Below, piece after piece: positions 15,854 through 62,302 of a stretch of DNA of 64,000 bases (within the stretch, counting starts at the first letter, position 1; each line of letters starts with the position of its first letter). This DNA comes from Crocinitomicaceae bacterium (GTDB lineage Bacteria > Bacteroidota > Bacteroidia > Flavobacteriales_D > Crocinitomicaceae), in contig JAGYIR010000009.1 of the NCBI GenBank assembly GCA_018402525.1, forward strand, positions 124,001 through 188,000. The letters are read 5' to 3'. The notes beneath the pieces were generated by a model that made no database searches, was not told the DNA's origin, and was given only the letters and a program-made list of their open reading frames with translations. A program made the translations under genes and the position numbers.

Positions 15854-16663
15854 CTACCCGTTCTTCATCTCGTTACCGCATTGATTGCAGTATATAGAAC
15901 CAAAAGGATTATCGTGCTTACATTTGGAGCAAAGATTGTCGTTCTCACCATCGGGTTTATATTTGGACATTTCGACTGAGATCAACCCTGTTGGGATAGC
16001 AATGATGGCATAACCCAAAATCATCATGACTGATGCCAAAAATTTACCGATATCGGTATGAGGAGTTATATCACCAAAGCCAACTGTCGTTACCGTTACG
16101 ATTGCCCAGTATATACTTGCTGGAATTGAATCAAATCCATGTTCTCCTCCTTCAATGACATACATTAAAGTCCCTGCAATCACAATCATCATGATTACAA
16201 AAAACAAGAATACCATGATTTTGTAGTAGCTTGCCTTCAACGAATGTGCTAATGCTTGTGATTCGGAAGAAAAACGACTTAGTTTGAGTATTCTAAAAAT
16301 TCTAAGAAGTCGCAACGCACGAATTATTCTGAGCGTAGCATATGAGTAAAACATTGGGGTAAGCATTAAAAATGTGGGTAATAAAGAAACTAAGTCAATG
16401 ATTCCCCATTTGCTGGTGATGTACCTCCATGGTTTGGGATGCACCGCTATTCTTAAAATATATTCAATGGAAAACAAAACGGTGAATACCCATTCAATAA
16501 TGTATAACTCTTTACCTATAATTGCTCGCCAAGCGGGTACACTTTCTATCAGTACAGCAAAAACGGAGATTAAAATCAATACCAACAAGACCACATCGAA
16601 CTGTCTTCCAGCTCTGGTGCCGGTACCAAAAATGACGATAAATAATTTATTTTTCATTATCAA
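15854..16663 (-). CDS. Voltage-gated-type potassium channel with C-terminal zinc ribbon
   Basis: 269 residues. Six membrane segments: S4 carries regularly spaced arginines (TLRIIRALRLLRIFRILKLSRF, about residues 108-129), and the pore has the K+ filter TVTTVGFGD between S5 and S6. After S6 a short linker ends in a CxxC...CxxC zinc ribbon (CSKCKHDNPFGSIYCNQCG, residues about 246-264). Expected role: potassium-selective conductance in the inner membrane. The second ATG (MKNK, two codons in) is an equal start. The zinc ribbon could sense metal or redox state, but this is inference. Confidence 0.9.
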   Translation of the reverse strand: MIMKNKLFIVIFGTGTRAGRQFDVVLLVLILISVFAVLIESVPAWRAIIGKELYIIEWVFTVLFSIEYILRIAVHPKPWRYITSKWGIIDLVSLLPTFLMLTPMFYSYATLRIIRALRLLRIFRILKLSRFSSESQALAHSLKASYYKIMVFLFFVIMMIVIAGTLMYVIEGGEHGFDSIPASIYWAIVTVTTVGFGDITPHTDIGKFLASVMMILGYAIIAIPTGLISVEMSKYKPDGENDNLCSKCKHDNPFGSIYCNQCGNEMKNG

Positions 16664-16719: not shown

Positions 16720-16752
16720 CAAAAAAAAAGGCCACTATTTCTAGTGACCTTT
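16720..16752 (-). terminator. Terminator after the kinase/OmpA fusion gene
   Basis: On the minus strand a 10-base stem (16743-16752 with 16727-16736, one wobble) is followed by a long T run. Confidence 0.85.
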
Positions 16753-16770: not shown

Positions 16771-18516
16771 CTAAAATTTAGTAATTCTAAATTCCGTTCT
16801 TCTATTTTCTTGGTGTTCTTCCTCAGAACATTTAACTCCGTCCTTACATTTGTTTTTCAACTGCGTTTCCCCATAACCTCGGTAGGTGATACGCTCTGGG
16901 TTTGTAATCTTAGATTTAATATATTCAGACGCTGCTTTTGCTCTTTGATCAGACAATTGAAGATTCTGCTTATCACTTCCTCTTTTGAGCTTAATCCAGA
17001 TTACCTTATCCCCCCTATTCGACTTCCAAGCATGCTTGATGGAGTTTGTGAGAAGTTCATTTAAAACAAAACCTAACGCTTGGGCCTTATCAATTTCTAG
17101 TTGTCCCTCATCAATTTCTTGCTTCACCAAAATGTCCTCGCTAACGACAGACTTTATTAACACCTTGAGGTAATTTTTTATATTAATGCTTTTTAGATCG
17201 CCGTCTACATATAAATTTTGATGTGCTAATGCCAAAGAGTTTATTCTATCTCTACTATTTATGAGTGCAGCTTTTGACTTATCATCCAACGCAAAACTGG
17301 ATTGTAAATCGAGTAAACTAGAAACCACTTGCATGTTGTTTTTTACCCGATGGTGGACTTCTTTTAATAAAATTTCATTCTCTGAAATTGTATCTTGGAG
17401 GGTTGTATTTACCCTTTTTAATTTGACAAAGAAGAAGAAAATTATCGCGAGTAGAATCAATACAGCAACAATAACGAATACTAGAAGTTTTTGCGTTCTC
17501 CGTTCATGCTCAATTGTTGCTTGAGATTGTTCATTTTTGGAACGTTCTAGAGTCAACTCAGACTCCTTTCTTTCAAGTTCGAACTCACCACGGATAGAAG
17601 CCATTTTATCCGACCATTCTTGACTTCGCATGTTAATTGCGGCCAAATGGTATAGCCAGCGTGTATCAAACGCATCCTTCCATCTGCCCAACTGTTCATA
17701 GCACGATATTTTTTCATTGTACAAGGGTACCAACATTTTATACCAATCATCGTCACCCACAATGTCTAGCCCCTTATCCGCAAAATAAAGCGAAGAATCC
17801 AACAATCCAATTTTGTTGTAGCACCTACTTAAATTAAAGCAAGCATTTGGAGCATATCTGCGGTGTTTTTTATCGTCCCATAATTTTACGGCTTCTCTGT
17901 AAAAGGGAATAGCTGCCCTTGGCGAGTTTAAATGCTCCTTAATATAACCGATTTCATTTAGGGAAGTGGCAATGTGGTAATTTGACTTAGACTTTTTAGC
18001 TAACTTAAGTGCTTTATTCGAATAGCTTAATGCTTTTTCCAAATTTCCTTCGCAATGCACAATAATTGCCGCATATCGATCATAGTATGCCACGAGAGTA
18101 GTCAATTTTACATGTGCAAGATCGCTTTCCACGTTTATCGATTCTAAAATCTTGAATGCCTTATAGCACTCATCAATACTTCTTAAAAACTCAGCATATT
18201 GTATTTTTATTCGCGCTGCTAAATCAACATTTTCTATTTTCGATTGAAGTGGGAGTAGTTTATCATAAATCGCAAATACATCATCATATTTCTCGAGTAC
18301 CTTATATATATATGCCAATTTAAAATAAAGTTCACTTCGTTGTTCGATTTCACCATTTCTCAATTCAAAAAGTACTCTTTGATAAAATACAGCCGCCTCC
18401 TCATAATTGCTTTCGTTAAAGCAACTATCTGCCTTCTCCATCGCGTTTATATCCGATGACGCTAATGAGATAAGGGGCAACAATAAAAAAAGTAGTATTT
18501 GGAGATATTTTTGCAC
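16771..18516 (-). CDS. Histidine kinase truncated and fused in frame to an OmpA C-terminus
   Basis: About 581 residues from a GTG start at 18516; the longer frame to 18633 would overlap ahcY and its terminator and lacks a signal peptide. Order: signal peptide (QKYLQILLFLLLPLISLASS), TPR repeats to about residue 330, membrane helix (LLVFVIVAVLILLAIIFFFF), HisKA_2 dimerisation box LLKEVHHRVKNNMQVVSSLL, then the ATPase N box LNELLTNSIKHAW. The ATPase stops there: the DxGxG and second glycine boxes are absent. From about 16985 to the stop the protein is instead an OmpA-like tail (NLQLSDQRAKAASEYI, TYRGYGETQLKNKC, ENRRTEFRI). Probably a recombinant pseudokinase; a functional fusion is possible but unproven. 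No response regulator is adjacent. Confidence 0.8.
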   Translation of the reverse strand: MQKYLQILLFLLLPLISLASSDINAMEKADSCFNESNYEEAAVFYQRVLFELRNGEIEQRSELYFKLAYIYKVLEKYDDVFAIYDKLLPLQSKIENVDLAARIKIQYAEFLRSIDECYKAFKILESINVESDLAHVKLTTLVAYYDRYAAIIVHCEGNLEKALSYSNKALKLAKKSKSNYHIATSLNEIGYIKEHLNSPRAAIPFYREAVKLWDDKKHRRYAPNACFNLSRCYNKIGLLDSSLYFADKGLDIVGDDDWYKMLVPLYNEKISCYEQLGRWKDAFDTRWLYHLAAINMRSQEWSDKMASIRGEFELERKESELTLERSKNEQSQATIEHERRTQKLLVFVIVAVLILLAIIFFFFVKLKRVNTTLQDTISENEILLKEVHHRVKNNMQVVSSLLDLQSSFALDDKSKAALINSRDRINSLALAHQNLYVDGDLKSINIKNYLKVLIKSVVSEDILVKQEIDEGQLEIDKAQALGFVLNELLTNSIKHAWKSNRGDKVIWIKLKRGSDKQNLQLSDQRAKAASEYIKSKITNPERITYRGYGETQLKNKCKDGVKCSEEEHQENRRTEFRITKF

Positions 18517-18529
18517 GAACAAGTTTACA

Positions 18530-18565
18530 TCAAAAAAAAAAGCTATCCAATGGATAGCTTTTAAA
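18530..18565 (-). terminator. Terminator after ahcY
   Basis: On the minus strand a perfect hairpin AAAAGCTATCC-ATT-GGATAGCTTTT is followed by a T run, 20-30 bases past the ahcY stop. It lies inside the longest open frame of the next gene, which supports the internal GTG start chosen there. Confidence 0.85.
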
Positions 18566-18583
18566 AGACATAACAGGTATTTG

Positions 18584-19894
18584 TTAATATCTATAGTGTT
18601 CTGGCTTGTATGGTCCTTCAACCGATACACCAATATATTCCGCTTGATCCTTTCTAAGTTCAGTTAACTCAGCTCCAACCTTTGCAAGGTGCAACTTAGC
18701 AACTTTCTCATCCAAGTGCTTTGGCAACATGTAAACGTCATTTTCATACGCATCCGCATTTGTCCAAAGTTCAATTTGAGCCAATGTCTGGTTTGTGAAC
18801 GAATTTGACATTACAAAAGAAGGGTGACCTGTTGCACAACCAAGGTTCACCAAACGACCTTCTGCAAGAACGATGATGTCATTTCCTTTTACGTTGTACA
18901 TATCCACCTGAGGTTTAATCTCAATCTTCGTTGAACCATAATTCTTGTTCAACCAAGCCATATCTATTTCATTATCGAAGTGTCCGATGTTACAAACGAT
19001 CGTTTTATCACGCATTGCTTCAAAATGATGTCCTTGAACGATGTCCTTATTACCAGTTGTAGTGACAACGATGTCGACTTTTCCAACAACTGATTCCAGT
19101 TTACGTACTTCAAAACCATCCATCGCAGCTTGCAACGCACAAATTGGATCGATTTCCGTAACAATTACACGTGCTCCTGCTCCTTGTAACGAAGCAGCGG
19201 AACCTTTACCAACGTCACCGTAACCACACACAACAGCTACTTTTCCAGCCATCATTGTATCTGTAGCGCGACGAATTGAATCCACTAGAGATTCTTTACA
19301 TCCGTACTTGTTGTCAAATTTAGATTTAGTCACCGAATCATTTACATTGATCGCTGGCATTACTAAAGTTCCGTTTTTCTTTCTTTCGTACAAACGGTGA
19401 ACACCAGTTGTTGTTTCTTCAGAAAGCCCCTTGATATCTTTTGTCAATTCTGGGTAACGATCAAATACCATGTTGGTTAAATCTCCGCCGTCATCCAAAA
19501 TCATGTTCAATGGCTGACCATCTTTAAATGCGAACAATGTTTGCTCAATACACCAATCGAATTCTTCTTCATTCAACCCTTTCCAAGCAAAAACTGGAAT
19601 TCCTGCCGCTGCAATTGCTGCCGCTGCGTGATCTTGTGTTGAAAAAATATTACAGGATGACCAAGTAACATCTGCTCCTAAAGCAACCAATGTTTCAATC
19701 AATACTGCCGTTTGAATCGTCATGTGCAAACAACCTGCAATACGAGCACCAGCTAATGGTTTAGATGCTCCGAACTCTTCACGCAATGACATTAATCCCG
19801 GCATTTCAGCCTCTGCCAATCCAATTTCTTTTCTTCCCCATTCAGCTAGACTAATGTCTTTTACCTTATAAGCTAATTTTTCTGTTGTACTCAT
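18584..19894 (-). CDS. ahcY: Adenosylhomocysteinase
   Basis: 436 residues from [13 protein letters not shown]; the 23-codon upstream extension is rejected because the family starts here and a -7 box lies in it. Landmarks: [18 protein letters not shown]-binding [14 protein letters not shown], and the C-terminal [14 protein letters not shown]. It splits S-adenosylhomocysteine into adenosine and homocysteine using NAD, recycling the product of methyltransferases. Cytoplasmic. Confidence 0.97.
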
Positions 19895-19927
19895 ATTTGT
19901 ATTTGTGTATTTTCTTAATTTACAGTG

Positions 19928-19935
19928 CAAAACTA
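19928..19935 (-). promoter_or_regulatory. Candidate -7 box for ahcY
   Basis: The minus strand reads TAGTTTTG (exact TAnnTTTG), about 35 bases before the ahcY ATG. No convincing -33 TTG. Confidence 0.45.
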
Positions 19936-20013
19936 CGAAGTTCCTTTTGGAATTGAAAGCCATTGGGGCAAAGATTCACAAAATGACCCTTTTAAAAGGC
20001 GTGACACATAACC

Positions 20014-60351: not shown

Positions 60352-60365
60352 AAGTGTTTAAAAAA

Positions 60366-60391
60366 GTTGTGCATTGATGTACATCAAGAAA
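60366..60391 (-). promoter_or_regulatory. FNR-type operator upstream of the beta-propeller gene
   Basis: Second exact copy of the 26-base segment, with TTGATGTACATCAA at 60374-60387. It lies between the Crp/Fnr gene end (60403) and the -7 box of the downstream gene. Confidence 0.7.
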
Positions 60392-60402
60392 CGAAAAGCA
60401 AT

Positions 60403-60936
60403 CTATTTTCTAAGAGAAATCTCTTTTCGAACTCGGCTCAACGCTTCTGGAGTAATGCCTAAATATGAAGCTATCATTCTTTGTGGTACTCTTTGAATAA
60501 TAGATGGATAAGTCGTAATAAAATGTTCATAGCGTTCAAGAGCGACTGAACTCATCAACATTACGATACGCTTTTGTAGTACTTTTAATCTTTTGGCTAA
60601 TTTCAGAGGGTCATTTGCCAAAGTATCAAAATCTTTTTCTATTTGGATTATGATAGAATCCTCCAAACAGTCAATAAACAAATCACAAGGTTCATCATTT
60701 GGAGTAGCATCAGCAATTACCCAATTTTCGGGAGCGAACTGATAGATATGTTCTTTTCCTTTTTTGTCGATGGAATAACTGCGTAACAAACCTGACTCCA
60801 CTTGAAAGAACTTCGTATTCAAGTCGCCTGCCCTTTGTAAAATTTGTCCCTTTTTTACTGTTATTCTTTTCAAGTTAGTTTGGTTTTTTTTAATGGCATA
60901 CAACAATTGGCTAAAGACTATAGCGTTTAGCCCCAT
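60403..60936 (-). CDS. Crp/Fnr-family transcription regulator
   Basis: 177 residues. Cyclic-nucleotide-binding-type barrel (ITVKKGQILQRAGDLNTKFFQVESGLLRSYSIDKKGKEHIYQF) followed by a long dimer helix and a C-terminal helix-turn-helix (QRMIASYLGITPEALSRVRKEISLRK). No N-terminal cysteine cluster, so it is not an oxygen-sensing FNR of the E. coli kind. The first codons lie in the block-end repeat, so the true start may be further in. It is the probable reader of the two FNR-type sites. Confidence 0.88.
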   Translation of the reverse strand: MGLNAIVFSQLLYAIKKNQTNLKRITVKKGQILQRAGDLNTKFFQVESGLLRSYSIDKKGKEHIYQFAPENWVIADATPNDEPCDLFIDCLEDSIIIQIEKDFDTLANDPLKLAKRLKVLQKRIVMLMSSVALERYEHFITTYPSIIQRVPQRMIASYLGITPEALSRVRKEISLRK

Positions 60937-61189
60937 TATACATTTTGCGTTCTAAAGTACTGAAAATCTTATTAAATAACTCAAAAACCATTCGATAATA
61001 ACCATTTGTAAACGGTTGCAGGTCGAATCGTATTTTTGCAACAATCCATCCTGAAATTTCTTCGTAGATGGAAAAAATCAATTGAATTTAAGTAGTTTGG
61101 GGTTGTGAAAACTGGTGGGTGGCGGCTAAGCTAAGAAACGTTACCATCCCGAAGGGCGGTTATGTTTTCTTCGGTTTTGTTATAGACGT
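60895..61189. other. Right end of the accessory block, no gene
   Basis: Contains GGCATACAACAAT (60895-60907, inverted relative to 57095-57107), an inverted pair GGCTAAA/TTTAGCC (60909-60932) that overlaps the Crp/Fnr start, TTTTGCAAC (61034-61042) and the right direct repeat. No open frame of note and no RNA gene recognised. Confidence 0.5.
61087..61103 (+). repeat. Right copy of the 17-base direct repeat
   Basis: TTTAAGTAGTTTGGGGT, identical to 56959-56975. The 25 bases before the repeat end at AAG (61068-61092) also resemble the M23 gene end (18 of 25 equal) and read WKKSIEFK-stop, against WKSTLEFK-stop in the M23 protein. Confidence 0.6.
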
Positions 61190-62005
61190 TTACTTTAGTT
61201 TCTTCATTGTGTTGTTAGCTAATAATGATTTCATTTGACTAATTGCAACTTTATTTAATTGTATCAGTCTTTCATTTTGAGATAAGCCTTGTTGAATAAT
61301 CAAAGCATTTATACTTTCCATATTACTTAAAACAACCAACTGTTCCAAAGTTGCAGAGTCTCTCAAGTTTCCTTTTTTATCAGGATTAACTTCTCTCCAT
61401 TCTTTTGCGGTAATGCCAAAAAGAGCAACATTTAACAAATCAGCTTCACTTGAATATACGAAACCAGCCTGTTGTTTACTGATTTCTTTTGGTATTAAGT
61501 TTTCTTTAATTGAATCAGTTTGTATCTGATAATTTACTTTAGCTAAAGTTCTTTGTAAATTCCATTCTAATTTTAAGTGGTTGTTTTCTTCATTCTTTAA
61601 ACGCTGAAACTCTTTAATTAGATAAATTTTGAATTTCGGGCTAATCCACATTCCAAATTCAAAAGCAATGTCTGGATGAGCATAAGTTCCACCATATCTT
61701 CCAGCTGTAGCTTTTAGACCTATGGCATTCGTCTTTTCAACCCAATCTTTAACGCTTAGTTTATAACTATTTAAACCTGCCTGACTTCTAATTGTGGCGA
61801 ATTCGCCATAATTAAAATTTGGATTATAAACATTCTCCCAAATACCTAAATATTCTACGGTATTTCGATTTCGTAACCAATCAGAAATGAAAAAATCTCC
61901 ATCTTTGGCTTTTAACATATCAGTTAATGAAATATATTCCTGATCGTTTTCAAGTATGATTGTGATATCCCTTCCTTCAACTGATATTTTTTTATTTTTT
62001 GCCAT
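61190..62005 (-). CDS. KilA-N domain protein
   Basis: 271 residues. The KilA-N domain occupies about residues 10-130 (TDMLKAKDGDFFISDWLRNRNTVEYLGIWE, RYGGTYAHPDIAFEFGMWISPKFKIYLIKEFQRLK). The C-terminal part is helical (DSATLEQLVVLSNMESINALIIQQGLSQNERLIQLN). KilA-N is a DNA-binding domain of phages and mobile elements, and such stand-alone genes are common in Bacteroidota genomes. It is flanked by imperfect inverted repeats. Function unknown. Confidence 0.9.
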   Translation of the reverse strand: MAKNKKISVEGRDITIILENDQEYISLTDMLKAKDGDFFISDWLRNRNTVEYLGIWENVYNPNFNYGEFATIRSQAGLNSYKLSVKDWVEKTNAIGLKATAGRYGGTYAHPDIAFEFGMWISPKFKIYLIKEFQRLKNEENNHLKLEWNLQRTLAKVNYQIQTDSIKENLIPKEISKQQAGFVYSSEADLLNVALFGITAKEWREVNPDKKGNLRDSATLEQLVVLSNMESINALIIQQGLSQNERLIQLNKVAISQMKSLLANNTMKKLK

Positions 62006-62302
62006 AATGTTTGAAGTAAAGTTAAAAAAAAGGAAGAATTACTGGATTCAAAATCCATGTTTATTCTCCAAATTTTCAACCCACTACTTAAATCGGAATA
62101 GTATATTATTGACAATAAATTCAATCATAATTGGACTTTATTTATGATTGTCAATTAGCCGTAAACTGAGATTAAATAAGAAACAACAAAACGTTATAAT
62201 CACGATTATTCTCATAGAATCAAACTAGCCAAGCTTTATAAAGAGAGAAGTAAGATAATACCAGATTCCAACCTCAATATTTATTACAGTACTACTGTTA
62301 GT
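62006..62302. other. Gap of about 300 bases, with one inverted repeat arm
   Basis: AT-rich. TTTTCAACCCACTACTTAAA (62073-62092) is, apart from two small gaps, the inverse of 61087-61111 on the other side of the KilA-N gene. CAATCATAAT and ATGATTGTCAATTA (about 62122-62157) form a weak palindrome. No gene seen. Confidence 0.45.

Follow-up and report, generated by a model that had tools for sequence, protein, structure and literature searches.

Both halves of the fused gene and their limits

How did a bacterial gene come to encode a membrane sensor kinase that ends in part of an OmpA domain, and is the product likely to work? The gene lies in the window, by which we mean the whole 64,000-nucleotide stretch analysed (C5:124001-188000), from a draft Crocinitomicaceae genome referred to here as G000 (3.16 Mb, 19 contigs, 98.3% complete, 1.46% contamination). 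Its open reading frame occupies 16771..18516 on the minus strand, starts at a GTG and encodes 581 amino acids before its stop, with no internal stop; the ORF list also starts this frame further upstream, at a TTG at 18633. The frame has a single full match in its own genome, at both the protein and the DNA level.

The kinase-derived part (16979..18516, minus strand) was delimited by identity to a kinase on contig C5 of G019, a genome of the same genus, by the end of the DNA match and by Pfam. It comprises a signal/TPR sensor, a membrane helix, HisKA_2 and the start of an HATPase domain up to the N box. Pfam places TPR_12 at residues 143-212 and the HisKA_2 box at residues 386-458 (1.4e-22, 80 bits), and the membrane helix was recognised from a reading of the sequence and from a long helix in an AlphaFold model. 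The remaining kinase boxes, HHRVKNN and NELLTNS, are unchanged. The protein does not hold a complete HATPase_c domain with its G1 and G2 glycine boxes: the match spans profile positions 3-48 of 111 only, at 15.4 bits, below the cut-off of 26.4, and the boxes DNGIG and GITLI of the G019 kinase are missing from the alignment. Since these ATP-lid glycine boxes are gone, no phosphorylation would be expected of the product.

The tail (16771..16980, minus strand) corresponds, by protein and DNA matches to G019 contig C35, to approximately the last 70 residues and the stop of a PorE-like gene with PD40, CarboxypepD_reg and OmpA domains. Here too the fold is incomplete. The OmpA match covers profile positions 42-93 of 98 only (28.7 bits, above the cut-off of 27.2), and a whole fold with its TDSRG loop is absent. 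The aspartate of this loop is the diaminopimelate ligand in OmpA domains. Of the HTDSRG stretch present in G019, G020 and G016, the part ahead of the R has been cut off: the TD is gone, while the RG and the later R of QRA are kept. Given the membrane helix, the tail, which sits C-terminal to the kinase domain, would lie on the cytoplasmic side. Because of this predicted location and because the first half of the fold is missing, the tail is not expected to bind peptidoglycan.

In an AlphaFold model of the fusion, rough because its alignment is thin (7 sequences), the TPRs are well modelled and residues 515-581 have pLDDT below 50. The model of the intact G019 kinase, also rough (4 sequences), completes the ATPase sheet at residues 451-575, with block means of 55-85.

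The preliminary description of this gene, as a kinase-OmpA chimera that has lost its ATP-lid glycine boxes and whose OmpA part lacks its own start and first half, agrees with these results. Its tail of 64 or so residues is indeed an OmpA C-terminal end but is about 70 residues long (512-581). The objection that a cell-wall-binding fold makes no topological sense on a cytoplasmic domain stands, as does the remark that the product may be a pseudokinase.

The junction lies around codons 511-514 (K-R-G-S; 16975..16986, minus strand), as placed by alignment to the parents and by DNA matches. When window DNA was compared with G019 by BLAST, kinase homology stopped at 16979 and OmpA homology covered 16772-16980, an overlap of 2 bases. 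At this point the sequence of the fusion is IKLK-RGSDK, against IKLKKGEKD in the G019 kinase and TDSRGSDK in the G019 OmpA protein; codon R512, at the start of RGSDK, occupies 16981-16983, inside the range of about 16966-16985 first proposed for the switch. Judging from these sequences, the microhomology open to a deletion is likely to have been at most a few bases.

Two terminator-like hairpins flank the gene on the minus strand. One follows it (16727..16752), and a hairpin with a T run, read by eye, also follows the G019 ompA. The other (18538..18562) lies between the fused gene and its upstream neighbour and is identical over its 25 bases in G019.

Intact parents of both halves in relatives

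G019 carries both parts as separate full-length genes, on two contigs. The C5 kinase is 65% identical in amino acids to fused residues 4-527, and residues 537-607 of the C35 OmpA protein are 82% identical to fused residues 511-581 (77% at the DNA level). The kinase gene (L111:8330-10057) encodes the full ATPase end, DNGIG and GITLI included, and a Response_reg-LytTR gene comes after it; the HATPase_c match of the kinase extends over 3-97 of 111 positions but, at 25.6 bits, is itself just under the cut-off. The OmpA gene (L112:7994-9817) encodes a PD40-CarboxypepD_reg-OmpA protein, with OmpA positions 3-92 of 98 matched at 62.5 bits, and comes after genes for a CHU_C protein and a PorP/SprF protein.

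We also considered a donor within the genome itself. This was ruled out: the best OmpA tail in G000 is 57% identical, and non-self DNA matches are at most 69 bases long. Kinase-domain relatives make up most of the 79 loci found in a scan of genome contigs, the top match having 30% identity over residues 67-496.

The window order is ahcY, the fused gene (kinase head, OmpA tail), a K+ channel gene and groEL. The upstream flank is an S-adenosylhomocysteinase-like gene (18584..19963, minus strand), which we take to be ahcY; it is 94% identical to the gene that also precedes the kinase on G019 C5. Downstream lies a presumed K+ channel gene (15854..16663, minus strand) with a TVGFGD filter in its sequence, 78% identical to the G019 C35 gene beyond ompA. 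Window genes to the right of the ORF (ahcY, hemH, an ABC transporter and onward) have their counterparts on G019 C5 as far as the kinase itself, and those to the left (the K+ channel gene, groEL, groES and onward) correspond to G019 C35, beginning at the OmpA gene and continuing outwards; the names hemH, ABC transporter, groEL and groES are likewise our assumption. Between ompA and the K+ channel gene, G019 has an ORF that is presumably DnaJ-like (L112:9898-10692), missing from the window and from G020.

In G020 both intact parents are linked on one contig, C55, on the same strand and in the same order: ahcY, kinase, LytTR regulator, giant HYR adhesins, a CHU_C-type protein, PorP/SprF, PD40/OmpA, K+ channel and groEL (bases 89001-89999 unread). 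The kinase is at 99354-101093 and ompA at 60356-62179, both on the minus strand, and the two junction-equivalent points are 38,974 bases apart. The corresponding distance in G019 is at least 42,688 bases if C5 and C35 are adjacent, the contig break falling inside the adhesins. The estimate of about 39 kb for the lost segment comes from G020 alone. Behind the two-component pair, giant HYR-repeat proteins stand in a row with open frames of about 2,500-4,400 residues (L113, L117 and L118 of G020; L111, L119, L120 and L112 of G019).

G016 has a kinase and adhesins at the locus, but the nearest OmpA homologue in this genome sits on a different contig, so the layout of the island varies. The kinases of G020 and G016 share only 32% identity with the fused protein; the case for their orthology therefore draws on their place behind ahcY no less than on sequence.

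A deletion of about 39 kb as the most likely origin

We conclude that the fused ORF is very probably the scar of one deletion of about 39 kb between two genes that were not neighbours. An earlier proposal that a deletion had joined the kinase gene to an ompA-type gene is upheld by the comparison of relatives, except that the two genes were not adjacent: in G020 about 39 kb separates them, and they form the two edges of an adhesin island. In the ancestor, such an island would have stood between ahcY and the K+ channel gene, all on one strand. It would have held a membrane sensor kinase (TPR-TM-HisKA_2-HATPase) with its LytTR response regulator, followed by several giant surface proteins with HYR repeats, a CHU_C-tailed protein, a PorP/SprF barrel and a PorE-like OmpA protein. 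The deletion would have run from about kinase codon 511 (fusion numbering) to about OmpA codon 537 (G019 numbering), keeping the frame by chance and removing regulator, adhesins and anchor together.

If so, the lost genes should be missing from G000. We limited the search of this genome to the LytTR regulator, PorP, the first 536 residues of the OmpA protein and HYR domains, four parts of an island that also includes a 656-aa CHU_C protein and small ORFs. No orthologue-level match was found for any of the four. The best match of the regulator was 32% identical and that of PorP 34%, with a shorter one at 36%. Apart from the tail, the long matches of the G019 OmpA protein were 34% and 40% identical; its partial matches reached 40% at the most, except for 71 residues at 44%. 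HYR domains numbered 0 in G000, and the same search tallied 50, 52 and 50 in G019, G020 and G016, which served as positive controls. The OmpA 5' part, response regulator, PorP and HYR genes are thus absent from the assembled genome at the level of orthologues.

The preliminary description also asked whether the join could belong to the assembly and not to the organism. An assembly or binning artefact would mean that the island is present, that its repeats went unassembled and that its flanks were wrongly joined. The 19-contig draft state of G000 is compatible with this, as is the nature of the lost region, which consists of giant repeat genes among which the G019 assembly breaks. However, a collapse would be expected within repeats, not within two unrelated genes. 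Around the junction the G019 kinase and ompA parents have 15 of 60 nucleotides in common, and their longest common word within 40 nucleotides is 5, so in G019 there is no repeat at these points to mislead an assembler. In addition, the window contains no N, the HYR count in the assembly is zero, and across the join the flanks keep the strand and the order that they have in G020. We therefore regard an artefact as improbable.

What we observe is that the parents are separate genes, that a relative shows their order on one strand and the distance between them, and that the searched parts of the lost segment have no orthologue-level match in G000. The fused ORF is most likely a recent, non-functional deletion scar carried by the living genome.

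Spread and age of the fused gene

The deletion scar reading raises the question of how widespread and how old the join is. A junction peptide (window residues 443-581) was searched against 34 genomes of the genus (E<=1e-12) and 299 of the order (E<=1e-20), two sets that overlap. The fused frame was found in 1/34 and 1/299, both times in G000 itself; the search in related genomes that the preliminary description had called for thus leaves an accidental origin unrefuted. Two genus matches crossed the junction position, G006 C223 (42% over query positions 13-138) and G047 C301 (51% over 58-138). Both were rejected as further fusions: they are ordinary OmpA proteins, with Pfam OmpA positions 1-90 and 33-90 of 98, with alignment to the G019 OmpA protein continuing far beyond the junction on its upstream side and no match to the G019 kinase. 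Among the literature matches listed, no title concerned this kinase-OmpA fusion.

Synonymous sites are saturated between G000 and G019; in place of dN/dS, we compared differences by codon position and made a relative-rate count. In the kinase part, unique residues in the fused versus the intact G019 lineage numbered 21 versus 23 with G020 as outgroup, 22 versus 28 with G016, and 4 versus 4 where both agree. The HisKA_2 box has no unique changes at sites where both outgroups agree. The tail has 4 versus 2 unique changes at 50 sites (both outgroups) and 5 versus 4 at 71 (G020), too few to mean anything. The fused gene shows no sign of decay. Because change is similar on the fused and intact lineages, the deletion is probably young compared with the split between G000 and G019; that the sensor part is still under constraint is less likely. 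Under a deletion origin the sensor half would look intact only because the event was recent.

The open frame and the unchanged kinase boxes would also be expected under retained function, a point against the scar reading. A pseudokinase whose TPR sensor and dimerising HisKA_2 are under selection with a new tail fits the open frame and a rate of change no faster than in the intact G019 lineage, but equal rates are likewise expected after a recent deletion, our searches of G000 gave neither an orthologue of the cognate regulator nor a HYR adhesin, the AlphaFold model gives the tail no folded structure and neither the 34 genus nor the 299 order genomes (overlapping sets) include a second carrier, all of which makes this very improbable.

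Comparison with known systems

Chimeric gene remnants made by deletion are a known kind in bacteria. The fused gene resembles them in being an in-frame join of same-strand genes once far apart, with everything between them gone, and differs only in the particular genes. This is probably an ordinary, clearly resolved in-frame deletion scar without function.

The kinase part is like the HisKA_2 membrane sensor kinases that work with LytTR regulators in Bacteroidota, having a TPR sensor, membrane helix, HisKA_2 and N box, and its intact G019 orthologue precedes a Response_reg-LytTR gene. In contrast to these kinases, the fused gene is without ATP-lid glycine boxes and regulator and carries an OmpA remnant. 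The tail corresponds to the C-terminus of a PD40-CarboxypepD_reg-OmpA protein, as in the PorE-like proteins of the type IX secretion system found beside PorP/SprF, and the G019 orthologue adjoins PorP/SprF and a CHU_C protein. Unlike those proteins, it holds the last 70 of about 607 residues only, with no beta-propeller, first OmpA half or export signal of its own. Complexes of PorE, PorP and type B CTD proteins have been described (PMC9143113), and the OmpA/PorP/CHU_C set of G019 resembles the sets described there.

A variable adhesin locus between ahcY and the K+ channel gene

We sought ahcY in 34 genomes of the genus and read 30 loci, the window's own included, and then 18 further stretches. 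A K+ channel match comes directly after the ahcY match in 9 genomes, with no kinase or OmpA match between; the gaps are approximately 70-260 bases in eight and 923 in G046. Seven genomes (G007, G048, G021, G043, G045, G011 and G006) have 1.4-15.6 kb between the two genes, and the G019 HYR adhesin query matched in 4. Matches to this query stop about 70 bases short of the K+ channel gene in G016, and in G004 and G018 they are followed by the contig end. The K+ channel gene is not in the stretch read in G017, G008, G023, G040, G010, G012, G009 and G013; the contig end was reached in G041 (L169), and G003, G005 and G047 were left out of further reading. These data indicate that the interval (L143-L190) is a variable adhesin locus, nearly empty in nine genomes and filled with different, often adhesin-like cargo in others of the genus.

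In G020, a 75-bp direct copy of the ahcY 3' end, 94.7% identical, lies between ompA and the K+ channel gene (L114:8248-8322 versus L113:11132-12442), as if an island had inserted at the ahcY 3' end. No second copy was seen in the 18 further stretches, and G020 is the one genome in which we observed it. Because the interval is nearly empty or differently filled across the genus and because of this copy, we raise, as a speculative and rather unlikely reading, that the ahcY 3' end serves as a hot spot where mobile islands encoding regulated, giant type IX-secreted adhesins integrate in this genus, and that the fused gene records a recent island loss.

Annotation of the fused protein as a sensor kinase carrying a cell-wall domain should be avoided; the gene would instead mark a genome that lost a whole adhesin locus and its own two-component pair. 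For surface variation in Bacteroidota, the more useful lead is this chromosomal interval, in which the giant surface-protein genes present vary between genomes of one genus. In one of these genomes, G010, ahcY itself matches in three pieces (86-89% identity; frames 1, 3 and 1) with extra bases between them (L193:550-2112; G010:C10:34800-37300), as if small insertions or sequencing errors interrupt the gene.
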